A DNA stretch of 64,000 bases. Source: Gammaproteobacteria bacterium (lineage in GTDB: Bacteria > Pseudomonadota > Gammaproteobacteria > Ga0077536). The stretch is taken from NCBI GenBank assembly GCA_016191285.1, contig JACPPA010000012.1, positions 62,001 through 126,000 on the forward strand, read 5' to 3'. The translations under genes and the position numbers were made by a program. This document shows, piece by piece, positions 45,187 through 62,226 of the stretch (positions are counted from its first letter, which is position 1; the number at the start of each line of letters is the position of its first letter). Below the pieces are notes generated by a model. The model had not been told where the DNA came from, made no database searches, and saw only the letters and a program-made list of their open reading frames with translations.

Positions 45187-47556
45187 TCAATCGTCGACCT
45201 TACGCGCAGCCTCGATCAGCCGCCACAGCCGTTCCGGCGTAAACGGCATTTCAGTAATCGGTGCGCCAAACGGCGCCAAGGCATCCGCCAACGCATTGCC
45301 TAACGCTCCTGGCACCATGCCCGTTGGCCCTTCGCCCTTGCCTTTCGAACCCAACGGATTGTGTGGCGTCGGCACATTGTGCTCATGGGTCTCGATATAC
45401 GGCAGATCGCGCGCCGACGCGATGAGGTATTCCTGCAGCGATCGCGTGAGCTGCTCGCCGTCCACGGTATAGACAAATTCTTCGAGGCAGGCATTGCTGA
45501 TCCCAAGTGCAATACCGCCATGCAATTGCCCGCGCACGATGGTGGGATTGATCGGACGTCCGGCGTCATCTACCGCGACGTAACGCAAAATCCTGAAACG
45601 CCCACTGTCGGGAAATACTTCGACCGTTACCGCATGCACATTGCAACTGTGCATGCCGGTGGTATCCGCCTCGAAATGCGCCGTGTGGTCCAAGCCCCCC
45701 TCCATGCCGGGCGGCAATTCGGTCGGTGCCAACAACGCGGTTTCCGCGATCCGCTGCAAGGAAATCTGCTGCTGCGGACTGTCTACCAAGCGTACTGCGC
45801 CAGCCCGGAATTCAAACGCGGAGTCGTCGGCGGTGATCTGCAGCAGATGCCGCGCAATCGCAATCAGCTTGGGTTTCAAACCACGCGCGGCCATCACTGC
45901 CGCGCTGGTCGTATAGCCCCCCATGCGCGAGGCCAAGGTGCCAGCCGCGAACGGCGCCGCCTGGGTGTCGCCGGAAATCACATAAACATCGTCTGGCGTG
46001 ATCCCCAGTTCGTCGGCGACTACCTGCGAAATCGTCGTGTCGTGCCCCTGCCCCTGAGGCTGATCGCCATGTGCGACCTGGACCTGACCGTTGGCATCGA
46101 AGCGGATCGTGGCCACGCCAAAGCCGGGCTGGCGTTCCATCGGGACCAAAATCTGCGATGACAAGCCTGAAAATTCAATGCCGAGACTTAAGCCCAATCC
46201 AAGGTAGCGCCCGTTCGCACGCGCGGCCTGTTGCTCGACGCGGAACGCGTCGTAATCGATTGCGGCTTTTAGCTTTTTAAGCGCGCCGACGAAATCACCG
46301 GAATCCACATTGACACCGGTCGCCGTCACGTACGGAAAAGTCTTGATGCAGTTCTTCTCGCGCATCATCAACGGATCAAGCCCCAAGCGGAGCGCGGCGA
46401 TATCCACAATGCGATCGATCGCGAAGCGTCCGGTGAACGACCCGAACGATCGACTCGGCGTAAGCCCTGCCTTATTGGTGACGACACAGGTTAAATCGAT
46501 ATCGACGTTCGGTATCACGTAGCCATTCGGTAGGTACATCATGCCGAGCCAAGGCATCGCAAAACTCACATAGATGGGGACGCGCGCGTCGCCACAATTC
46601 GCGATCATGCGATCGCGCAGACCGAGAATGGTGCCGTCGACCGCCACCGCGAGTTCGAGTTCGTGGATTTGATCGCGTTCCTGACCGATGTTGAGCAAAT
46701 TTTCCTGACGCGTCTCGATCCACTTGATCGGCCGACCGTACTTCATCGCTAAGTAGCAGATCAGTATCTCCTCGCGATAGAGCGGTGCCTTCACGCCAAA
46801 ACCGCCGCCCACATCCTTGGGCGCGATGACGCGAATTTTGCTATCCGGAATTTTAAAATAGGCAGCCAACAAATGCCGTTTGATATGCGAGCGCTGGGTG
46901 GTCAACCATACCGTCAACCCTTCGGCCGCGTCATAGCGGGCGAGACAGGCGCGCGGTTCCATCGGACTCGCGCCGCAGCGATGACCTTTGAAACGCTCTT
47001 TGACGACCACTGCGGCCGCGGCAAACGCGGTATCGGTGTCGCCGTGTTGCAGATGTTGATGGTAGACCACGTTGTCGCCCCACTCGGGATAGAGCAGCGG
47101 CGCGCCGGCGGCCAATGCAGCTTCGGCATCCACGACTACCGGCAACGGCGCGTATTCAACCGCGACGAGATCGAGCGCGTCTTCCAATACATAACGGTCT
47201 TTGGCAATGACCGCCGCGACGAGATCCCCGACGTATTTCACCTCGTCGACCGGCAGCGGTCCGAAAATCGGACGCTTGGTTTCGCCGGGTAACTTCGGCA
47301 CGGAGAGATCGGACAGGATCGGTCCCAGATGCGCGGTATCCTGGCCCGTGACGACTGCGAGCACGCCCGGCAAGGCGCGCGCCGCGTCTGCCTCGATGCG
47401 CACAATCCGCGCATGCGCGTGGGAGCTACGCACAAAACCCACCACCGCCATGCGCGGCAAGGTTAAGTCCGCCACATACTGGCCCTGGCCGATCAACAAC
47501 CGGTGGTCTTCCTTGCGCTTAATCGATTGCCCGACCCACGGCTTCTGCGCGTTCAT
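45187..47556 (-). CDS. Molybdenum hydroxylase large subunit (CoxL/xanthine dehydrogenase family)
   Basis: A 789-residue molybdopterin-cytosine-dinucleotide-type subunit. The N-terminus VGQSIKRKEDHRLLIGQGQYVADL, then IRVIAPKDVGGGFGVK, GDQPQGQGHDTTISQVVADELG and the GKGEGPTG active-site glutamate region near the C-terminus are typical. The active-site loop (about residues 365-372) reads SRSFGSF, matching neither AYXCSFR (form I CO dehydrogenase) nor AYXGAGR (form II), so CO is not the likely substrate. ATG at 47556 is chosen; upstream sequence overlaps the small-subunit gene. It ends the operon coxM-coxS-coxL (medium, small, large). Confidence 0.88.
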   Translation of the reverse strand: MNAQKPWVGQSIKRKEDHRLLIGQGQYVADLTLPRMAVVGFVRSSHAHARIVRIEADAARALPGVLAVVTGQDTAHLGPILSDLSVPKLPGETKRPIFGPLPVDEVKYVGDLVAAVIAKDRYVLEDALDLVAVEYAPLPVVVDAEAALAAGAPLLYPEWGDNVVYHQHLQHGDTDTAFAAAAVVVKERFKGHRCGASPMEPRACLARYDAAEGLTVWLTTQRSHIKRHLLAAYFKIPDSKIRVIAPKDVGGGFGVKAPLYREEILICYLAMKYGRPIKWIETRQENLLNIGQERDQIHELELAVAVDGTILGLRDRMIANCGDARVPIYVSFAMPWLGMMYLPNGYVIPNVDIDLTCVVTNKAGLTPSRSFGSFTGRFAIDRIVDIAALRLGLDPLMMREKNCIKTFPYVTATGVNVDSGDFVGALKKLKAAIDYDAFRVEQQAARANGRYLGLGLSLGIEFSGLSSQILVPMERQPGFGVATIRFDANGQVQVAHGDQPQGQGHDTTISQVVADELGITPDDVYVISGDTQAAPFAAGTLASRMGGYTTSAAVMAARGLKPKLIAIARHLLQITADDSAFEFRAGAVRLVDSPQQQISLQRIAETALLAPTELPPGMEGGLDHTAHFEADTTGMHSCNVHAVTVEVFPDSGRFRILRYVAVDDAGRPINPTIVRGQLHGGIALGISNACLEEFVYTVDGEQLTRSLQEYLIASARDLPYIETHEHNVPTPHNPLGSKGKGEGPTGMVPGALGNALADALAPFGAPITEMPFTPERLWRLIEAARKVDD

Positions 47557-47567
47557 CGCATCATCCG

Positions 47568-48074
47568 CTACAGCGGAAACCAGCGCGCGCGTTCGGTCGG
47601 CGTCATCGCCGCCAATACCGCGATGGCTTGGCGTACCGCGGCCACGATGTGTACGTAGCCGGTACAGCGACATAACACGCCGGACATGGCGTGCCGGATG
47701 GCGTCTTCCGAATCGATCGGGTCCTTTAGAAAATCGTACAAGGTCATCAAGAAGCCTGGCGTGCAAAAGCCACATTGCAAGCCGTGCAAATCGCGAAACG
47801 CGGCTTGCAAGGGATGCAATTCTTCGCCGCGGGCCAAGCCCTCGATGGTTAGCAGCTTGGCGCCATCGGCTTGCACGGCGAGCATCAGGCAGGATTTCAC
47901 CGCGTAACCGTCGACCACCACGGTGCAAGTCCCACAGCGGCCCTCGAATCCACAGCCGACATGCGTACCGGTGGCGCCCGCGATCTCGCGGATAAAATCG
48001 ACCAATAGATAGCGATGCTCGACCGTTGCAGTGTGCACTTCGTCATTGATCGTGATGGTGATTTCGCGTTTCAC
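47568..48074 (-). CDS. Molybdenum hydroxylase small subunit, 2Fe-2S (CoxS-like)
   Basis: A 168-residue protein with two [2Fe-2S] domains. A plant-type ferredoxin cluster has GTHVGCGFEGRCGTCTV and a further Cys in KSCLML; the helical domain has LQCGFCTPGF and VLCRCTGY. It relays electrons from the molybdenum subunit to the FAD subunit. Its start overlaps the medium-subunit stop by four bases (ATGA) and its stop is 11 bases from the large-subunit start. Confidence 0.93.
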   Translation of the reverse strand: MKREITITINDEVHTATVEHRYLLVDFIREIAGATGTHVGCGFEGRCGTCTVVVDGYAVKSCLMLAVQADGAKLLTIEGLARGEELHPLQAAFRDLHGLQCGFCTPGFLMTLYDFLKDPIDSEDAIRHAMSGVLCRCTGYVHIVAAVRQAIAVLAAMTPTERARWFPL

Positions 48075-48940
48075 CGCGCCTCCTGCCGAAACCGCGCCAA
48101 CACTTGCGCCAGAACTTGGGGCACTAGGGAACGAATGAGTTGCGAGCGATACTGCGCCGACGCCATGGTGTCGTCCTGGGTTGCGATCTCGGCGGCGGCG
48201 GCCTCGCCAGCGGTAGTCAATAGCCTAGACGTTAGTAACACATCCTTGACGGTCGCGGCGGCACGCAGTGCGAGCTGCGGTGCCGGATGTACGCCACCGA
48301 CGACGATCACTGCGCGCGTGCTCCGACCCTCGCGATCGAAAACGACTAGCGCCGCGACCCCGATGATCGGTCGGTCTTGCGCCGCGCGCCCGACTTTCAA
48401 ATACGCGCTAAATGTGCCGGGTGTCGGCGTAACAAATTCGAGATGGGTCGCCACTTCGCGTGGATCGATAACACCAGATTTAAGCGCCGTCACCGGCACC
48501 AGACGCTCACCCACGGTGTGCTTCAAGCGCAGATGCGCGCCGAGCGCGATCGCGGCCGGCGCAATATCCGACGCCGGCTCGCCTTCACATAGGCTACCGA
48601 TTACGGTGCCGCGATTGCGGACTTGAAGGTCGCCGATGGCTTGCGCAGCATCGCTTAGCGCACTCGCAGTCTGTCGCAACCGCGGATCAGCCGCCGCCGC
48701 GCGGTGCCGGACGAGCGCGCCGATCCGTACACAATCCATGACGGATTCGATCCCGGTAAGATTTTCCAGGTGATTGAGGTCAATCAGCGTCCGGTGCGAT
48801 GCTAACCGCGCCTTCATCCGTGGCAACAGACTTTGCCCGCCGGCAATTAAGGCGCACTCGGCGGCATACTCTGCGCGCAAGCGCAACGCCTCCTCTAAGT
48901 TACGCGGCGCAAAGTAACGCTCGATCGGCTTGGGATACAT
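48071..48940 (-). CDS. Molybdenum hydroxylase medium subunit, FAD (CoxM-like)
   Basis: A 289-residue FAD-binding protein. ALIAGGQSLLPRMKARLASH is the FAD-binding loop, and QVRNRGTVIGSLCEGEPASD is the second FAD contact (usual TIGGSLAHADPAAD, here slightly divergent). ATG at 48940 with GGAGGAG upstream. First gene of the hydroxylase operon; its 5' end faces the large flavoprotein gene across 370 bases, so the two units could share regulators. Confidence 0.92.
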   Translation of the reverse strand: MYPKPIERYFAPRNLEEALRLRAEYAAECALIAGGQSLLPRMKARLASHRTLIDLNHLENLTGIESVMDCVRIGALVRHRAAAADPRLRQTASALSDAAQAIGDLQVRNRGTVIGSLCEGEPASDIAPAAIALGAHLRLKHTVGERLVPVTALKSGVIDPREVATHLEFVTPTPGTFSAYLKVGRAAQDRPIIGVAALVVFDREGRSTRAVIVVGGVHPAPQLALRAAATVKDVLLTSRLLTTAGEAAAAEIATQDDTMASAQYRSQLIRSLVPQVLAQVLARFRQEAR

Positions 48941-49310
48941 GCTCCTCCGCGTTAGCTCACGCAGTACAGATGGCACGGGCGAACGGCTGCTCGATAATAA
49001 CGATTCCGCTGGAGCGGGCCAAGCTTGCTCGATACCCCTCAACTGGGCTGTGTTGCGCTTCATCCTGCGGGCGCCGTTTGTGGGAGCGGCTTTAGCCGCG
49101 AATGGGTCTGTTCAAAGATTCGCCGCTGAAGCGGCTCCCACAGCAGAAGCACAAGACAACCGACAAGCTACTCTGAAATGCCGGCCTGCCACCGCCGCAG
49201 GATGTACTCGTCTCGGAATATTCCCATACGTACCAATATCTTCCACAATACGGCACCGTATGGTATATAGCGCCGCACCCTCACTCCACCCATTGTCGAC
49301 AAGAGACGTT
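48941..49310. promoter_or_regulatory. Divergent intergenic region with a REP pair and an ATACGGCACCGTAT dyad
   Basis: A REP-like pair at 49078-49143 (TTGTGGGAGCGGCTTTAGCCGCGAA facing ATTCGCCGCTGAAGCGGCTCCCACAG) lies between the two units. Nearer the flavoprotein gene, ATACGG-CA-CCGTAT (49248-49261) is a six-base inverted repeat just upstream of TATATAG, and it could be an operator over a promoter. Promoter elements are weak (TTCCAC, 17-base spacer, TATATA), so this is only a candidate. Confidence 0.35.
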
Positions 49311-52300
49311 ATGAATCGACGCGCAACGCTGCCTGAGTCCGACCACCAGCCCCTGGTCCTTGGTATCGACGGATTTACCTACAGCGATCTCTACGCGCCG
49401 CAGCGTCTCGGCGATTTACTCGGCGTATTCGACCAACACTATCGTGCGAGCGCGCCCGAGGCCTTTGCGCGCTTCGCTGCCTATCGCGCCTGCCGTGGCG
49501 ACGGTATGGCCCCGGAAGCGGTATCCGAAGTATTGGTCGAATCCGCCCCGCACGTCGGCAACTTTGTCGCGTGCCTATTCGGCGTAGAACGCGATCACGC
49601 CGCGCAACACGCGCGAATCACCGCCGAATTCGACAGCATTTTTCGCTTGAAGCACGACCTTCTCGAGGGCCTTGCCAAACGCTTCAAGCAAGCGCCGATT
49701 GAAACCTGGGATCGCGCCCACCTTTCAGCACAAATGGCAGGATTGCGCACGGCAATGCCAACCGGCGGAGCGCCACAGGATGACGAAGAATTCCACACGG
49801 CCACTGTCGGTACCCGTTTGCTAGACCTGGCCGCGCAATCAGTTGCCGACGCGGCGCAGATCGGCCCGGCAGTGGCTGCGTTGCGCGAATCTCTCAGGGG
49901 CCAGGGCAGCGACTTCACCGCCATCACGAGCCTGGATGACTCGGCATTCCTCACCGCGCTGAACGAAATTGTCGCGCGTTGGTGCCATCTCGCGGCGAAC
50001 GACCCGTCGTTTGCGCCCCACACCGCGGCGTGGGCATTGTTCCAACAACCCGCGAAAACCGACTGGTCGGCGCTGGTGCCGTTCGTCAAAAACGATCGCG
50101 GCAACTATCAGTCGCTCACCGGCCCCCACCATCATCTGCGCCGCCGTGATGGCTTCTCGCTGACGGACCCACGTTTCGCCGCGCGCCGTGTGCATCATGA
50201 GATCGACCATTGCATCTATTGCCATGATCGCGATGCGGATTCGTGCTCCAAGGGCATGCGGCAGAAAAAAGAAGCGGCGTTCAAAACCAATGCTCTCGGC
50301 GTCACTGTCGTCGGCTGTCCATTGGGCGAGAAAATCTCCGAAATGCATCTGGTCAAACGCCAAGGCGACAACCTGGGCGCGTTGGCCCTGATCATCATCG
50401 ACAACCCGATGTGCCCGGGCACCGGTCACCGGATCTGCAATGACTGCATGAAGGGCTGCATTTATCAGAAGACCGAGCCCGTTAACATTCCGCAGATCGA
50501 GACCAATGTCCTGACCGATGTGCTGTTCATGCCGTGGGGATTTGAAATTTACAGCTTCTTAACGCGTTGGAATCCGCTCAATGTAGAGCGCCCGTATGCG
50601 TTGCCGTACAACGGCAAGAATGTGTTGGTCGTCGGCCTCGGGCCAGCCGGTTACACCTTGGCGCATTATCTGTTGAACGAAGGATTCGGCGTCGCTGGCG
50701 TCGACGCGCTAAAAATCGAACCGCTGCCGGCGGCGTTGATCGGCGATTCTGAACACGCGCCGCGGCCGATCAAAGATTTTCGCGTGCTGTATGAGGATCT
50801 CGACACGCGCACGAACTTAGGCTTCGGCGGTGTCGCCGAGTACGGGATCACCGTGCGTTGGGACAAGAACTTTCTTAAAGTGATTTACCTGACGTTACTG
50901 CGGCGACAAAACTTTCGCGCCTACGGCGGCGTGCGTTTCGGTGGCACCTTAACCATCGACGATGCATGGTCGCTTGGCTTTGATCACATCGCGCTCGCCA
51001 CCGGCGCTGGGCAACCGTCGGTTATCGGTCTCAAGAACAATTTGATTCGTGGCATCCGCAAAGCCTCGGACTTTTTGATGGGCTTGCAGTTAACGGGGGC
51101 GGCCAAGGACGCGTCGCTCGCGAACTTGCAAGTGCGTCTGCCAGCCGGCGTCATCGGTGGCGGTCTCACCGCGATCGACACCGCGACCGAGGTCATGGCT
51201 TACTATCCGAAGCAAGTAACCAAGATTTTGCAGCGCTACGAAGCGCTGCTCTCTGAACACGGCGAAAGCGCGGTCCGTGCACGTTTTGACAAGGAAGAAC
51301 TTGGCGTTCTCGACGAGTATCTGACGCATGGCCGCGCCATTCGCAATGAGCGCGCGCGCGCCGAAGCGGCGATTGAGGCTCCCAATTTTGCGCCGCTGGT
51401 CGCAAATTGGGGTGGTGTGACACTGTTCTATCGCAAGGACATTAGCGATTCACCGGCGTATCGCCAAAACCACGAAGAAATCAAAGAGGCCTTGGCCGAA
51501 GCCATTGAACTCGCACCGGGTATGAACCCACGCGAGGCGCTCGCCGATGAATTCGGGGCGTTGCGTGCCGTGCGCTTCGATTGCGCGCAAGGCGAAGCCA
51601 AAACACAAGTTGAAGTGCCGTTAAAAAGCCTCTTTGTCGCGGCTGGCACGTCGCCCAATATTATTTACGAACAAGAAAACCCCGGGACGTTCGCACTCGC
51701 TGGCAAATTTTTTCAAGATTTCGAAATCGTCGGCACCGAAACGCGCACCGGTCCCGGCGCCGGCACCCTCAAATTAACGAAGGTGGCGCCGTTCACGTCG
51801 TATTCGAATCATGGCCGCCGGATCAGTTTCTACGGCGATAACCATCCGCTGTATGCCGGCAACGTGGTCAAGGCCATGGCCAGCGCGAAGGACGGTTATC
51901 CGCACGTGGTGGAGTTGTTCGCCGATGCCTTGGCGCATCTCGACGCGACCACACAGACCGCACGGGATACCGCCCTTCACGGTTTTTTTAAAGCCCTGGA
52001 TGAAGCATTCAACGCGACCATCGTCAAGGTACAACGGCTCACGCCGACGATCATTGAAGTGTTTGTGCGCGCGCCGTTCGCGGCCCGGCGCTTTGAGCCA
52101 GGTCAATTCTATCGCGTGCAAAATTACGAAGCCTCGGCGCCACTCCAAAATCGAACGCTGTTGAGCGCGGAAGGGATCGCGTTGACCGGGGCGTGGGTCG
52201 ACAAAGAAAAAGGATTGGTGTCGTTGATTGCGCTTGAAATGGGCACCTCGAGTCGGCTGTGCATGACCTGGGAACCAGGTCAACGCGTGATCGTCATGGG

Positions 52301-52982
52301 CGTCACTGGCGCGCCGACGCATATTCCGCATAACGAAACCGTCCTGCTCGCCGGCGGCGGTCTCGGCAACGCGGTGTTGTTCTCGATTGGCAAAGCCTTA
52401 CGCGCGGCCGGTAATCGCGTGATCTATTTCGCCGGCTACAAAAAAGCCGAAGATGTCTTCAAACAGGACGATATCGAAGCCGCGGCCGATGTCATCGTGT
52501 GGTCGGTCGACCGTAGTGAGGGCGCACGCGCCCTGAGCCCACGGCGGCCGCAGGACATGACCTTTGTTGGCAACATCGTCGAAGCGATGATTGCTTATTC
52601 GAAAGGTGAGCTGGGGCCAGTGAGCATTCCGTTGAACACCGCGGATGAATTGATCGTCATTGGCTCGGATTTAATGATGGCGGCGGTAAAAGCCGCGCGC
52701 TTCACCTCGCTTGCGCCCTATCTCAAACCCAGGCATCGCGCCATCGGGTCCATCAATTCACCGATGCAATGCATGATGAAAGGGATCTGCGCGCAATGCA
52801 TGTGCCGCCATGTCGATCCCGACACCGGCGAAGAGCGTTTTGTTTACTCCTGCTTCAATCAAGATCAACCGCTGGACGCGGTCGACTTCACGCATCTGCG
52901 TGGCCGCCTGAAACAGAACTCGGTGCAAGAAAAGCTCGGTAATATGTGGTTGACACAGTTGACGGAGTCGCGCGCCACATAG
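49311..52982 (+). CDS. Nfn-like single-chain flavin/iron-sulfur oxidoreductase with extra N-terminal domain
   Basis: A 1223-residue fusion. Residues 1-290 are helical and unrecognised. Residues 295-385 hold Cys301, Cys304, Cys312, Cys336, Cys368, Cys376, Cys379 and Cys383, the last four as NDCMKGC-type 4Fe-4S ligands of a GltD N-terminus. Two Rossmann motifs follow: GLGPAG (442-447) and GGGLTAIDTATE (616 on), as in GltD/NfnB. From about 900 a PyrK/NfnA-like domain has EPGQFYRVQNY, LAGGGLGNAVLFS and a 2Fe-2S set at Cys1154, Cys1160, Cys1163 and Cys1181. Separate Nfn subunits form an electron-bifurcating NADH-dependent ferredoxin:NADP+ oxidoreductase. Here both are in one chain. ATG at 49311; its reading frame extends upstream over the REP pair without family support. 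Function unproven. Confidence 0.82.
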   Translation: MNRRATLPESDHQPLVLGIDGFTYSDLYAPQRLGDLLGVFDQHYRASAPEAFARFAAYRACRGDGMAPEAVSEVLVESAPHVGNFVACLFGVERDHAAQHARITAEFDSIFRLKHDLLEGLAKRFKQAPIETWDRAHLSAQMAGLRTAMPTGGAPQDDEEFHTATVGTRLLDLAAQSVADAAQIGPAVAALRESLRGQGSDFTAITSLDDSAFLTALNEIVARWCHLAANDPSFAPHTAAWALFQQPAKTDWSALVPFVKNDRGNYQSLTGPHHHLRRRDGFSLTDPRFAARRVHHEIDHCIYCHDRDADSCSKGMRQKKEAAFKTNALGVTVVGCPLGEKISEMHLVKRQGDNLGALALIIIDNPMCPGTGHRICNDCMKGCIYQKTEPVNIPQIETNVLTDVLFMPWGFEIYSFLTRWNPLNVERPYALPYNGKNVLVVGLGPAGYTLAHYLLNEGFGVAGVDALKIEPLPAALIGDSEHAPRPIKDFRVLYEDLDTRTNLGFGGVAEYGITVRWDKNFLKVIYLTLLRRQNFRAYGGVRFGGTLTIDDAWSLGFDHIALATGAGQPSVIGLKNNLIRGIRKASDFLMGLQLTGAAKDASLANLQVRLPAGVIGGGLTAIDTATEVMAYYPKQVTKILQRYEALLSEHGESAVRARFDKEELGVLDEYLTHGRAIRNERARAEAAIEAPNFAPLVANWGGVTLFYRKDISDSPAYRQNHEEIKEALAEAIELAPGMNPREALADEFGALRAVRFDCAQGEAKTQVEVPLKSLFVAAGTSPNIIYEQENPGTFALAGKFFQDFEIVGTETRTGPGAGTLKLTKVAPFTSYSNHGRRISFYGDNHPLYAGNVVKAMASAKDGYPHVVELFADALAHLDATTQTARDTALHGFFKALDEAFNATIVKVQRLTPTIIEVFVRAPFAARRFEPGQFYRVQNYEASAPLQNRTLLSAEGIALTGAWVDKEKGLVSLIALEMGTSSRLCMTWEPGQRVIVMGVTGAPTHIPHNETVLLAGGGLGNAVLFSIGKALRAAGNRVIYFAGYKKAEDVFKQDDIEAAADVIVWSVDRSEGARALSPRRPQDMTFVGNIVEAMIAYSKGELGPVSIPLNTADELIVIGSDLMMAAVKAARFTSLAPYLKPRHRAIGSINSPMQCMMKGICAQCMCRHVDPDTGEERFVYSCFNQDQPLDAVDFTHLRGRLKQNSVQEKLGNMWLTQLTESRAT

Positions 52983-53414: not shown

Positions 53415-54074
53415 TTAGCCGCATTTGGAATCGCCGCAGTTCAAACACGTTAAGCAATTTTCTAGCGCCACCACCGCTTTAGTGTGGCAATGCATGCATA
53501 GCGTGGCGGCGCTGGGGAAGCCATCGCCTTCGGCGGAGTTGCCGTGCGCGCTTGCATAGTGAGCGCGGGTCGCGGCGATATGCGCTTCGCGTTCGGCGTC
53601 CTGAGCGCTGTCGATCATGCCGAGCGCGCGCAAGTGAGATTCGATGACGTCACCAATTTCGGCAACCAGCGACGGCATGTAACGGCCGCCTTTCTTGAAA
53701 TATCCGCCGCGCGGATCGAACACACTGCGCAGTTCGTCGACCAGGAAAGTGACATCACCTCCCTTGCGAAATACCGCGGAGACAATGCGCGTGAGCGCCA
53801 CAATCCACTGAAAGTGATCCATGTTTTTAGAGTTAATAAACACTTCGAACGGCCGGCGATGTTCGTGCGCGGTCCCGGCATTCAACAGGATGTCGTTAAT
53901 CGTCACATAGAGCGCGTGTTCGGAGAGCGGCGTTTTAAGTTTGTAGGTCGCACCCACCAAGATCTCGGGCCGCTCGACCTTCTCGTGCATTTGAATAATT
54001 TCAGCAGCCGGCGCGCGCGGTGGTTCGGCAACCACTTCAACCCCGGTAATTTTCTGTTCGATCTTAATCGTCAT
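53415..54074 (-). CDS. nrdJb: Class II ribonucleotide reductase, C-terminal part (NrdJb, TSCPD domain)
   Basis: A 219-residue protein holding the C-terminal domain of B12-dependent ribonucleotide reductase as a separate chain. It has YVTINDILLNAGTAHEHRRPFEVFINSK, RGGDVTFLVDELRSVFDPRGG and a cysteine-rich tail (CMHCH, then CLTCLNCGDSKCG) that would transfer reducing equivalents to the catalytic subunit. The start lies two bases past the nrdJa stop on the same strand. The split form is known from Pseudomonas. Confidence 0.9.
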   Translation of the reverse strand: MTIKIEQKITGVEVVAEPPRAPAAEIIQMHEKVERPEILVGATYKLKTPLSEHALYVTINDILLNAGTAHEHRRPFEVFINSKNMDHFQWIVALTRIVSAVFRKGGDVTFLVDELRSVFDPRGGYFKKGGRYMPSLVAEIGDVIESHLRALGMIDSAQDAEREAHIAATRAHYASAHGNSAEGDGFPSAATLCMHCHTKAVVALENCLTCLNCGDSKCG

Positions 54075-54076
54075 CG

Positions 54077-56230
54077 CTAAAACGTCCCGTAATAACCTTC
54101 TTTCAATGCGTCATGTAAATTGGCGGCGGTATGTTGCTCGCCTTCATAGTCGACCGCTTCATCTCCCGTCGCTTCTACCGTTGAACCATCGGCGAGCGTG
54201 AAGCGGTAGCGCGTTTGCGCGCGGTCGGTGGTCTTCACCAATACCCCCTGAAACGCGCTCGGATTAAAACGAAAGGTCGTGCAGCCCTTTAAACCCTGCT
54301 CGTAAGCGTAGCGATAGATATCCTTGAAAGCGTCGTAACTGATATCGCTCGGGCAATTAATCGTCTTGGAAATCGACGAATCTATCCACGTTTGCGCCGC
54401 CGCCTGCATATCCACGTGTTGCCGCGGCGTGATGTCGTCGGTCGTTACAAAATAGTCGGGTAACGCCGTGTGCGCCGCCTCATCGGCGGTGAGGCCCTTG
54501 CTACGCAGAAACTCGCGATAGGCCAAGACTTCAAAGGCCCACACATCCACGGCTTCCTTGGTTTTGCGACCGACCTCGATCACGTTGCGAATATAGTGAT
54601 GCGCAAAACTCGGCTCAATACCATTACTGACATTGTTCCCAAAGCTAAGCGCAATGGTACCCGTCGGCGCGATCGAACTGTGATGCGTGAAGCGTGCACC
54701 CACCGCCGCCAAACGTTCAATCAAGGCGGGGGCAACGCCTGCGAGTTGTTGCAGGTAACGGCTGTAACGCGCGTGCAAAATCCGCCCTGGCACTTGATCG
54801 CCCACCTGATAACCATCACGTGCGAGTTCCGGGCGATCTTCGAAATGGCGCGGCGTCAGCGTGAATAATTCCTCCATGATCGGGGCCGGACCTTTTTCTT
54901 CGGCGAGAGCGAGCGCGGCATGCCAACCGCACAGCGCCAACTCACGACTCACGTCGCCGGTGAATTTGATCGCGGCCGATGACCCATACGGAATCTTCAA
55001 CATTGCGAGCGCCGAGCCGAGTCCCAAGAAACCCATCCCGTGGCGACGCTTGCACCGCAGTTCGGCGCGTTGTCGCGCGAGTGGCAGGCCGTTCACTTCC
55101 ACTACGTTGTCGAGCATGCGTGTGAACACGGTGACGACTTCGCGAAACTCGTCCCACTCAAAACGCACGCTGGAACCGAAGGCGTCGCGCACGAACGCGG
55201 TGAGATTGATCGATCCCAACAAGCATGCGCCGTACGGCGGCAACCCTTGCTCGCCACACGGATTGGTCGCGCGAAGGTCTTCGCAGAACCAGTTGTTGTT
55301 TAGCGAGTTATACGCGTCGATCAAAATAAATCCCGGCTCGGCGAATTCGTAGGTCGAGCGCATGATCGCGTCCCACACCAAACGCGCCGGTACCCGTTGA
55401 TGCACACGACACGCCACGCGCCCCAAGTTATCGGTGATATAGCCCTCGGCGATCGGCCAACGCCGCCACTGCACCGATTCCGGATCGGACAACGTCAGAT
55501 TGAGTTCGGTCTGCTCGGCTTGAGAGAGCGGAAAGACCAACGGCCAACTCTGATCGTCCTTCACCGCCTCCATGAATTCACGAGTTATCAACAGCGACAA
55601 ATTAAATTGCCGCAGACGGCCCGCTTCACGCTTCGCGCCGATGGCGGCCAGCACATCCGGATGCGATACATCGAAGGTCGCCATTTGCGCGCCACGACGG
55701 CCGCCGGCCGACGCAATGGTGAAACACATGCGATCGAAAATATCCATGAACGATAGCGGTCCGGAGGTCTGCGCCCCGGCGCCGGCCACAAACGCGCCTT
55801 TCGGCCGCAGCGTAGAAAACTCGTAACCGATGCCGGCGCCGGATTTGAGCGTGAGACCGGCCTCGTGCAATTTCGTCAGAATGTCATCCATCGAATCCTG
55901 AATGGTGCCGGACACCGTGCAATTGATCGTTGAGGTCGCCGGCTTATGCGCGGAGGCGCCGACGTTGGCCATGATGCGTCCCGCCGGAATCGCGCCATGC
56001 GCCAACGCCCATAGGAAACGCTCCCGCCAGTGTCGCTGCAGCTCAGGCGTTGCTTCCACTGCCGCCAGGGCTTCGGCAACGCGCAATTGCGTGTCTTCAA
56101 TACCGCGGTCTACAGGCTGTCCGTCACGGCCACGGAGACGATATTTCGTGTTCCAGGTTGCAAGCGACGTTGGCTGCAACGGCACGACTAGCGCGCTGGG
56201 GTTTTGGCTATTGATTAATTTCGGTTCCAT
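54077..56230 (-). CDS. nrdJa: Class II (adenosylcobalamin-dependent) ribonucleotide reductase catalytic subunit NrdJa
   Basis: A 717-residue reductase. It has STINCTVSG (redox cysteine), NPCGEQGLPPYGACLLGSINL (catalytic Cys and Glu), SSIAPTGTIALSFGNNVSNGIEPSF and SSISKTINCPSD. It reduces ribonucleotides using adenosylcobalamin and needs no oxygen or metal-radical partner. ATG at 56230 with AAGGTGA upstream is preferred over the longer frame to 56374, which overlaps the divergent dioxygenase gene. It is co-transcribed with nrdJb. Whether cobalamin is made or imported cannot be seen here. Confidence 0.93.
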   Translation of the reverse strand: MEPKLINSQNPSALVVPLQPTSLATWNTKYRLRGRDGQPVDRGIEDTQLRVAEALAAVEATPELQRHWRERFLWALAHGAIPAGRIMANVGASAHKPATSTINCTVSGTIQDSMDDILTKLHEAGLTLKSGAGIGYEFSTLRPKGAFVAGAGAQTSGPLSFMDIFDRMCFTIASAGGRRGAQMATFDVSHPDVLAAIGAKREAGRLRQFNLSLLITREFMEAVKDDQSWPLVFPLSQAEQTELNLTLSDPESVQWRRWPIAEGYITDNLGRVACRVHQRVPARLVWDAIMRSTYEFAEPGFILIDAYNSLNNNWFCEDLRATNPCGEQGLPPYGACLLGSINLTAFVRDAFGSSVRFEWDEFREVVTVFTRMLDNVVEVNGLPLARQRAELRCKRRHGMGFLGLGSALAMLKIPYGSSAAIKFTGDVSRELALCGWHAALALAEEKGPAPIMEELFTLTPRHFEDRPELARDGYQVGDQVPGRILHARYSRYLQQLAGVAPALIERLAAVGARFTHHSSIAPTGTIALSFGNNVSNGIEPSFAHHYIRNVIEVGRKTKEAVDVWAFEVLAYREFLRSKGLTADEAAHTALPDYFVTTDDITPRQHVDMQAAAQTWIDSSISKTINCPSDISYDAFKDIYRYAYEQGLKGCTTFRFNPSAFQGVLVKTTDRAQTRYRFTLADGSTVEATGDEAVDYEGEQHTAANLHDALKEGYYGTF

Positions 56231-56356
56231 ATCACCTTGAAGCTTAGCTGATGCACCTGCAGCAAAATAGGACAAAGGATCAATTTCGACTTGACCCATC
56301 CGACGAGAAGCAGCACCCTCAGGGTACCCCAACCTGGGCGCACGAAGGGCTATCTG

Positions 56357-57187
56357 ATGGGACTGTCCGCTCAAGGTCTGCGACCTGCTCGGTTAAGCGC
56401 TGAGGAAATCGCGGCCTATCACCGCGATGGCCAAGTCACGCCGCATTGGCGTTTGTCTGGTTCACGGCTCGCCGAGCTGCGTGATGCGCTCGATCGCTTG
56501 CTTCACGCGCGGCCCGATGTGCGACCGGATTTCATTGCCCTGCCGCATGTGCCGTGGAAGATCCCGGAATCGATTCAACTCGCACGGGAGTTTTTTGAAT
56601 TCGTGACCGATCCCGAATTGCTGGATGTAGTCGAACAGTTGATCGGCCCCGATATCGTCCTGTGGGCTTCGGCGATGTTTTGTAAACCGGCGACGACCGG
56701 ACTTGAAGTCCCCTGGCATCAAGACGGTCAGTATTGGCCGATACGCCCCCGCGCCACGGTAACGGTGTGGATCGCGCTCGACGAGGTCACGGTTGAAAAC
56801 GGCTGCATGCGCGTTATCCCCGGTTCGCATCGCGCCGGCGACTTCGCGCACGAGGTCAGTGACCGCGACGATCTGGTGTTGAGTAACGTTCTCAACGACC
56901 CACGACTTAATCTCAACGCCGTACGCAATATTGAACTCGACGCTGGCCAATGTTCATTGCACGATGTGAATATCGTGCATGGCTCGCAACCGAATCGCTC
57001 GGGTAAGCGCCGCGCCGGCTATGCCGTGCGCTACATGCCGGCGAGCGCGCATTTCGATCGCACGATAAAGATTGAAGGGGTGTCGAGCTTGGCACCGATC
57101 GAATTTGCCGAGCGTCCGATCTGGCTGCTGCGTGGCGTCGATGCCTGCGGCAAAAATGATTTTTCGGTTGGCCACACGGTCTGGTAA
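56357..57187 (+). CDS. Phytanoyl-CoA dioxygenase (PhyH) family protein
   Basis: A 276-residue Fe(II)/2-oxoglutarate oxygenase. The iron motif is VPWHQDGQYW (His and Asp), with the distal His in HDVNIVHGSQPNRSGKRRAGY, which also supplies an Arg for 2-oxoglutarate. VWIALDEVTVENGCMRVIPGSH is the family's core segment. The substrate is unknown; bacterial members act on many small molecules. ATG at 56357 with AAGGGC upstream; the longer frame to 56291 overlaps nrdJa's long-start option. Followed 5 bases later by a small zinc-ribbon gene. Confidence 0.88.
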   Translation: MGLSAQGLRPARLSAEEIAAYHRDGQVTPHWRLSGSRLAELRDALDRLLHARPDVRPDFIALPHVPWKIPESIQLAREFFEFVTDPELLDVVEQLIGPDIVLWASAMFCKPATTGLEVPWHQDGQYWPIRPRATVTVWIALDEVTVENGCMRVIPGSHRAGDFAHEVSDRDDLVLSNVLNDPRLNLNAVRNIELDAGQCSLHDVNIVHGSQPNRSGKRRAGYAVRYMPASAHFDRTIKIEGVSSLAPIEFAERPIWLLRGVDACGKNDFSVGHTVW

Positions 57188-61711: not shown

Positions 61712-62226
61712 CGCGCCACGGTGCTAGCAGTTTCCGCGCCCGACAATTGCGCGATTAGTTTAAACAGCGCGCGCGCCGCCTGCGGTGGCCGGGCAGCCGC
61801 GCGTTCGCGCAATGCATCGCTAACCAAGCCCCGGACCTTTTCGCGATCGGCTAGCGGATACCGCGCAGTCAACAAGCGCATGCCGTTATCCACATCGCTT
61901 AACAACGCATCGCGTAGCGTTTCGATTTCGTGCAGGGTTTTGACTTCGGCGTGACGCGGCGTCTGCGCGAGATCCAGCGCCGCTTGAATCGCAACGTGAT
62001 CCGCGTCGTCCAAGAGCCCGCCGAGATGTCGAATGTGTCGTTGCAACGCGCCGCGTTGCAGGCGTCGACCGGTGTGAATGGCGTCCACCAGCGATTCCGG
62101 GAGTGGCAACCGCTTGAGTAAGCGTTCCGGCAAATCGATCAAGATCCGGCCGAGTTCTTGCAGAGCATGCCGGTCGCGTTTTAACTGCGACTTGCTCTTT
62201 AAGTCGCCCCACTCGTTATCGGTCAT
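61708..62226 (-). CDS. darP: Ribosome-associated protein DarP (YjgA, DUF615)
   Basis: A 172-residue helical basic protein matching the YjgA family: KSKSQLKRDRHALQELGRILIDLP, LPLPESLVDAIH and RRLQRGALQRHIRHLGGLL. DarP associates with the 50S subunit during assembly. It overlaps the CMD-family gene upstream and ribA downstream by four bases each, so it is coupled to both. Confidence 0.92.
   Translation of the reverse strand: MTDNEWGDLKSKSQLKRDRHALQELGRILIDLPERLLKRLPLPESLVDAIHTGRRLQRGALQRHIRHLGGLLDDADHVAIQAALDLAQTPRHAEVKTLHEIETLRDALLSDVDNGMRLLTARYPLADREKVRGLVSDALRERAAARPPQAARALFKLIAQLSGAETASTVAR

Follow-up and report, generated by a model that had tools for sequence, protein, structure and literature searches.

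A gene in a 64,000-nucleotide stretch of gammaproteobacterial DNA (hereafter the window; positions 62,001 to 126,000 of contig JACPPA010000012.1, assembly GCA_016191285.1) encodes a protein that we consider fairly likely to be a single-chain relative of Nfn, working alone with a soluble ferredoxin, probably FdxA, as an NADPH-ferredoxin oxidoreductase that in this copy is also coupled to NAD(H). The gene occupies positions 49311–52982 on the forward strand and, from its ATG start and with the stop included, encodes 1223 residues: a helical head, an NfnB-like module, and an NfnA-like module. The head-bearing chain is a member of a widespread bacterial family and not a single oddity.

Predicted fold and module order

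As an initial annotation of this DNA had proposed, sequence and structure comparisons both find an NfnB/GltD-like and an NfnA/PyrK-like module joined in one chain at these positions. The reading frame is open upstream from 48930, and the starts of relatives lie near the ATG at 49311. Structure prediction, which the initial annotation had called for, was carried out with AlphaFold2 on residues 12–1211 using 62 sequences (mean predicted local distance difference test score [pLDDT] 87.7, predicted template modeling score [pTM] 0.89); the full chain fits NfnL and NfnS, and the head is left without a recognised match. Specifically, the predicted NfnB/NfnL/GltD-like module (50046–51926, forward strand; residues 246–872), with two putative [4Fe-4S] sites, a b-FAD site, and an NADPH domain, superimposes on NfnL of Pyrococcus furiosus (5jfc_L) with a VIA Z score of 25.8 and a root-mean-square deviation (rmsd) of 2.5 over 437 aligned residues, and gave a Foldseek E value of 5.4e-19 in the structure search. 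It is followed by the predicted NfnA/NfnS/PyrK-like module (52008–52979, forward strand; residues 900–1223), with putative a-FAD, NAD, and [2Fe-2S] sites, whose modeled residues 900–1211 superimpose on P. furiosus NfnS (5jca_S, 279 long) with a VIA Z score of 30.4 and an rmsd of 2.2 over 267 aligned residues.

Searches at the level of sequence point in the same direction. P. furiosus NfnS was the top match in the PDB sequence search, and NfnL was within the first three. In the Pfam scan, Pyr_redox_2 (residues 437–652) was the sole domain over its cut-off, with weak matches to Fer4_20 and Fer2. The leading NCBIfam model, NF005128/PRK06567, covers residues 68–1041, including part of the head, at 595 bits against a cut-off of 1072, and the models that follow it are mostly of the Nfn and GltD types, all under their cut-offs. 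The overall architecture of NF005128/PRK06567 is similar to that of the window's chain, and the head-bearing architecture is thus already catalogued, though not understood; the name of the family rests on module resemblance. An additional feature of the chain is a helical insert of ~70 residues within the NADPH domain (51192–51407, forward strand; boundaries approximate), which is unaligned against PRK12779 and forms two long helices in the AlphaFold2 model.

The N-terminal head

The head (49311–50045, forward strand; residues 1–245) is predicted to be a helical domain of no recognised family. A separate model of residues 1–330 has a mean pLDDT of 89.2, with helices spanning residues 24–238. 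The initial annotation had described an unrecognised helical head of 290 residues; no known domain was recognised here either, and the length is revised to ~245. The fold search with the head gave a best Foldseek E value of 0.81 and VIA-align Z scores of 4.1 or lower, with no credible match, which does not prove a new fold for this predicted structure. No credible match emerged from a Pfam scan of 62 N-terminal pieces, where each match came from a single member (best E value 0.0055), or from a PDB sequence search with the head, which returned only BST2, at an E value of 0.12 or worse. Few of the invariant head residues are polar, which makes docking or oligomerisation its probable role.

A profile of the head matches 55 of the 276 genomes of the class, namely 53 carriers of the gene plus G238 and G264, in the latter of which contig ends interrupt the gene. 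The profile did not match in G149 and G250, two carriers whose chains are short and divergent, and in carrier G301 the head lies in two pieces across two contigs. In G238, a 112-residue frame (G238:C1:238818-239060) contains a head fragment only, and the NF005128 match of this genome is weak (3.9e-9); the frame is possibly a decaying gene copy.

Cofactor sites and their conservation

Conservation was assessed in 38 chosen diverse members, the window's copy included, and in a named set of 69 rows (68 relatives from named genomes plus the window's copy). The [4Fe-4S] ligand region (50211–50501, forward strand) contains C301, C304, C312, C336, C376, C379, C383, and E397, with cysteine spacings C-x2-C-x7-C-x23-C and C-x2-C-x3-C. 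All of these residues are invariant in 38/38 diverse members and in 69/69 rows of the named set, save C312 (68/69, with one Ser). By analogy with Nfn, the cysteines would pair into two [4Fe-4S] clusters, and E397 would act as a cluster ligand. The first Rossmann motif, GLGPAG (50634–50651, forward strand; residues 442–447), is assigned to the b-FAD, and the second, GGGLTAID (51156–51179, forward strand; residues 616–623), to the NADPH domain. Downstream of the latter, YRK at residues 707–709 falls at the presumed place of the NADP-phosphate arginines of Nfn. The candidate for the flavin-N5 arginine is R516 (50856–50858, forward strand), which is Arg in 38/38 diverse members and 69/69 rows of the named set; in a pairwise alignment it falls on R201 of P. 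furiosus NfnL, the residue at the flavin N5. According to a review, an arginine at the flavin N5 is kept in all Nfn, and the cluster motif ends in Gx2ER (PMC6405883).

The C-terminal [2Fe-2S] site (52770–52853, forward strand) is all cysteine (C1154, C1160, C1163, and C1181; C-x5-C-x2-C-x17-C) and is retained in 38/38 diverse members and in 69/69 rows of the named set, save C1181 (68/69, with one gap). These residues, the cysteines between 301 and 383, and both Rossmann motifs had been listed in the initial annotation and are present in the translation. The NAD-site motif, GGGLGNAVLF (52353–52382, forward strand; residues 1015–1024), is intact in the window's copy. Across the 38 diverse members, GGGLGN is intact in 19, including the window's copy, changed in 17, and missing in 2, both short. 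It is intact in 36 rows of a wider set of 60, of which 59 are distinct because the window gene is present twice, and in the named set G1016, G1017, L1018, and N1020 are found in 69/69 rows. The initial annotation had named the lack of a nucleotide site in the PyrK-like part as grounds for rejecting its reading; this does not apply to the window's copy and does apply to part of the family. Because all [2Fe-2S] cysteines are retained in the 19 of 38 members whose NAD motif is altered or missing, the [2Fe-2S] cluster seems, judging from the sequences, to be needed more than the NAD site across the family.

Relationship to known Nfn-type proteins

Compared with the two-subunit NfnSL/NfnAB (pattern A, e.g., P. 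furiosus NfnI, 5jca), the predicted folds of both modules are alike, the [4Fe-4S] cysteines, the Glu, and the flavin-N5 Arg align, and the NAD motif is present in the window's copy. The window's protein differs in being one chain with the order NfnB-NfnA, in its 245-residue head and the ~70-residue insert in the NADPH domain, in its [4Fe-4S] spacing (Cx2Cx4Cx3C and CPQExQCx3C in Nfn), and in its all-Cys [2Fe-2S] site, which is Asp-ligated in Nfn. One-chain Nfn, implied to be a novelty in the initial annotation, is not new, since the review describes fused forms as patterns B, C, and D (PMC6405883). Pattern B, exemplified by AadN of Rhodopseudomonas palustris, likewise carries the Nfn modules in one chain, but its representatives here (L063 and L070) have the order NfnA-NfnB. 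According to the AadN paper, AadN has at least 51% identity to P. furiosus NfnI, anaerobic aromatic degradation in R. palustris requires it, and an AadN mutation supports electron transfer to nitrogenase (PMC9973337). PRK12779 (L160–L164), taken as the review's pattern C, resembles the window's chain in having an N-terminal extension followed by NfnB-like and then NfnA-like modules, but it keeps the Asp ligand at the [2Fe-2S] site (DATGMCGAC) and forms a separate clade. Its own N-terminal extension is of ~190 residues, and the spacing of its [4Fe-4S] cysteines is unusual (CDDRPCEIG...GGCPV in L160 and L162). GltD, DPD, and StnC/NfnABC share the NfnB-like fold but have other partners, and the NfnA-like half of the window's chain is not found in GltD.

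The phylogeny suggested in the initial annotation was run against fused Nfn. Trees of the NfnB-like and the NfnA-like modules held 20 head-family, 4 PRK12779, and 2 pattern B rows, with five GltD rows in the NfnB-like tree only and classical two-subunit NfnAB in neither. The 20 head-family rows form one side of a branch with support of 100/100 (NfnB-like) and 100/99 (NfnA-like), apart from the PRK12779 and pattern B rows and, in the NfnB-like tree, from GltD. The PRK12779 rows are separate from the head family with 100/100 support each and group with pattern B (83/68). We are unsure of the deeper branching order because of several long branches. In the NfnA-like tree, eight members with an altered NAD motif cluster together (94/99), three of them on very long branches of 3 to 7 changes per column.

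Counting long matches, among them those in the window's own genome and partial ones at contig ends, relatives occur in 26/58 near-relative genomes, 55/276 genomes of the class, and 13/299 genomes of the phylum, where one match is divided between two contigs. In the class, 0/276 genomes exceed the NF005128 cut-off of 1072 bits. A tblastn scan of named genomes found at least 565 stretches encoding a relative; the best 80 of these belong to gammaproteobacteria, including Methylococcus and Methylomonas, to Myxococcota (Myxococcus), and to Acidobacteriota, Planctomycetota, Nitrospirota, Ignavibacteria, Armatimonadetes, and others. Some carrier genomes are of 0.9 to 1.7 Mb. In a literature search over titles and abstract beginnings, with subscription papers mostly outside its coverage, we recognised no paper on the family beyond a mention in Neorickettsia.

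Association with the ferredoxin FdxA

The initial annotation had also suggested a gene-neighborhood survey. Among 120 loci, whose flanks are in many cases short, no general neighbor gene or operon partner was found, and the protein may therefore act as one chain. The largest true neighbor cluster, present in 8/120 loci, resembles a short-chain dehydrogenase by eye. A frame of ~1290 residues that recurs at the loci was taken as an antisense frame of the gene itself and was not counted as a neighbor.

A minority of loci place the gene near fdxA. In L200, L201, L202, L203, and L217, fdxA and a gene for a Grx4-type glutaredoxin adjoin the Nfn-like gene; fdxA also adjoins it in G149 and is found at a distance of ~2 kb in L209 and 3 kb in L188, the latter from a genome of another class. 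The products tested exceed their NCBIfam cut-offs (FdxA 2/2, Grx4 3/3, and NadA 1/1). The quinolinate synthase gene nadA lies on the other side of the Nfn-like gene in L200–L203. Altogether, at least 7 of the 55 carriers in the class, from four families (f5, f28, f115, and f157), have fdxA no more than about 2 kb from the gene, where a rough hand estimate gives less than 1 by chance and shared ancestry of gene order may contribute. In addition, FdxA is present in 55/55 carriers vs 175/221 other genomes (Fisher p 2.3e-5, uncorrected for kinship). FdxA as the partner is thus supported by association. Since the NAD motif is altered or missing in the seven copies near fdxA that were compared, the pattern suggests the exchange of electrons between NADPH and ferredoxin as the core activity.

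Two further associations were tried and rejected. A link to 2-oxoacid:ferredoxin oxidoreductases, scored by their domain PF01558, tends towards fewer matches in carriers (19/55 vs 108/221 in others, p 0.07), and for a role as substitute for PntAB the counts of PntB are 37/55 in carriers vs 125/221 in others (p 0.17). For both associations, G264 and G238 are placed among the 221 non-carriers.

Proposed function and alternative explanations

We propose that NADPH would reduce the b-FAD of the NfnB-like module, from which electrons would exit via the two [4Fe-4S] clusters to ferredoxin, while other electrons would reach the a-FAD/NAD site of the NfnA-like module by way of the C-terminal [2Fe-2S] cluster. 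In the window's copy, electrons would accordingly be exchanged among NADPH, ferredoxin, and NAD(H). Here NADPH as the donor to the NfnB-like half and the direction of electron flow are what we infer, and a role in NAD(P)H/ferredoxin exchange keeps the plausible part of the pyridine-nucleotide/ferredoxin coupling put forward in the initial annotation; the [2Fe-2S] ligand departs from Nfn, as does the NAD motif of some family members.

Several observations weigh against this proposal. Half of the 38 chosen members (19) carry an altered NAD motif, and the high-potential [2Fe-2S] motif of Nfn, with its Asp ligand, is not present, Cys taking the place of Asp. In all seven of the copies near fdxA that were compared (L024, L025, L027, L028, L038, L040, and L062), the NAD motif is altered or missing, which makes the ferredoxin link less direct for the window's copy. 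Moreover, proximity to fdxA is seen only in Pseudomonadota and, save one case, in one class; in the window's own genome (G000), fdxA is on another contig and not beside the gene; and fdxA is common in the class regardless.

Given that Cys replaces Asp at the [2Fe-2S] site and that some family members have an altered NAD motif, textbook Nfn catalysis is not to be assumed, and electron bifurcation at the b-FAD is a tentative suggestion, kept in view because the arginine and both [4Fe-4S] sites are retained. The broader idea of a new class of one-polypeptide electron-bifurcating ferredoxin reductase with its own head fold, through which aerobic and small-genome bacteria would obtain strongly reducing ferredoxin from NADPH, and in some members of which another high-potential acceptor would replace the NAD branch via the [2Fe-2S] cluster, is rather doubtful. 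We find it unlikely, too, that the protein is a plain non-bifurcating NAD(P)H-ferredoxin reductase or transhydrogenase, with the same wiring but both electrons on one path and no low-potential step driven. The altered NAD motifs would fit such an enzyme, as would the all-Cys [2Fe-2S] site, given that the Asp-ligated cluster of Nfn, according to the review, has a high potential serving the exergonic branch (PMC6405883). Furthermore, 36/55 carriers have no PF01558 match, so many of them may be without one usual source of reduced ferredoxin. However, the N5 arginine and both [4Fe-4S] sites, present in 38/38 members, would exceed the needs of a simple reductase, and there is no complementary pattern with PntB.

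Three other explanations concern the identity of the protein. That it is merely a divergent member of the pattern C fused Nfn is suggested by the module order and N-terminal extension shared with PRK12779, yet we judge this improbable: a profile comparison of the heads gave no match (probability 0.4%, with five near-identical PRK12779 heads), PRK12779 retains the Asp ligand, and it groups with pattern B, whereas the head family occupies a long branch of its own. The automatic name, "bifunctional glutamate synthase subunit beta/2-polyprenylphenol hydroxylase", implies the function of a glutamate-synthase small subunit, and a Neorickettsia genome paper applies this name to assign glutamine use (PMC5481527). 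The NfnB-like module does resemble such small subunits in its predicted fold (6s6s_E, Z score 23.7), but the Pfam scan of the 1223-residue chain found no amidotransferase or glutamate-synthase domain (no search for gltB was made), the loci show no general neighbor gene, the chain falls apart from the five GltD rows, and it carries a whole NfnA-like half, all of which makes this function very improbable. Least credible of all is a role as reductant partner of the adjacent molybdenum hydroxylase, raised in the initial annotation on account of the divergent placement of its genes (45187–49063, reverse strand), which we confirm. The large-subunit and FAD-subunit genes recur upstream in the congeneric genome G001 (L196, with the FAD gene at the edge in L003), but among the loci searched, many with little flanking sequence, the sole further hit is a 29% large-subunit match in L096. 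As the hydroxylase has FAD and [2Fe-2S] subunits of its own and the link is not conserved, the reductant role is unsupported.

Other features of the window

The three-subunit molybdenum hydroxylase comprises, all on the reverse strand, an FAD subunit (48071–49063), a [2Fe-2S] subunit (47568–48074; NCBIfam), and a large subunit (45187–47928). The large subunit has a 913-residue frame whose first 130 residues lie outside most family matches, so that its true start is probably internal. Between the hydroxylase and the Nfn-like gene, at 49078–49142, an imperfect palindrome (gggagcggctttagccgcgaa ... ttcgccgctgaagcggctccc) was spotted by eye, which we take to resemble repeats of the repetitive extragenic palindromic type. 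Downstream of the Nfn-like gene, 53415–56374 (reverse strand) encodes an adenosylcobalamin-dependent ribonucleotide reductase, NrdJ, with a separate downstream gene for a TSCPD-domain protein that matches the C-terminus of PRK08665, a one-piece model.

Significance

Nfn-type enzymes are seen mainly as tools of anaerobes. The family described here places Nfn-like wiring in Methylococcus, Myxococcus, and acidobacteria, carriers that presumably include aerobes, and in genomes down to 0.9 Mb. According to the 2019 review, an Nfn homologue is known in only one aerobe, which it names (PMC6405883). The glutamate-synthase name under which the family is annotated is misleading. Its natural variation, with Cys for Asp as a [2Fe-2S] ligand and with NAD motifs that are kept or altered, would provide a test set for the requirements of bifurcation. 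If FdxA is reduced by these proteins, they would be a means of obtaining low-potential electrons for bacteria in which the source of these is unclear.

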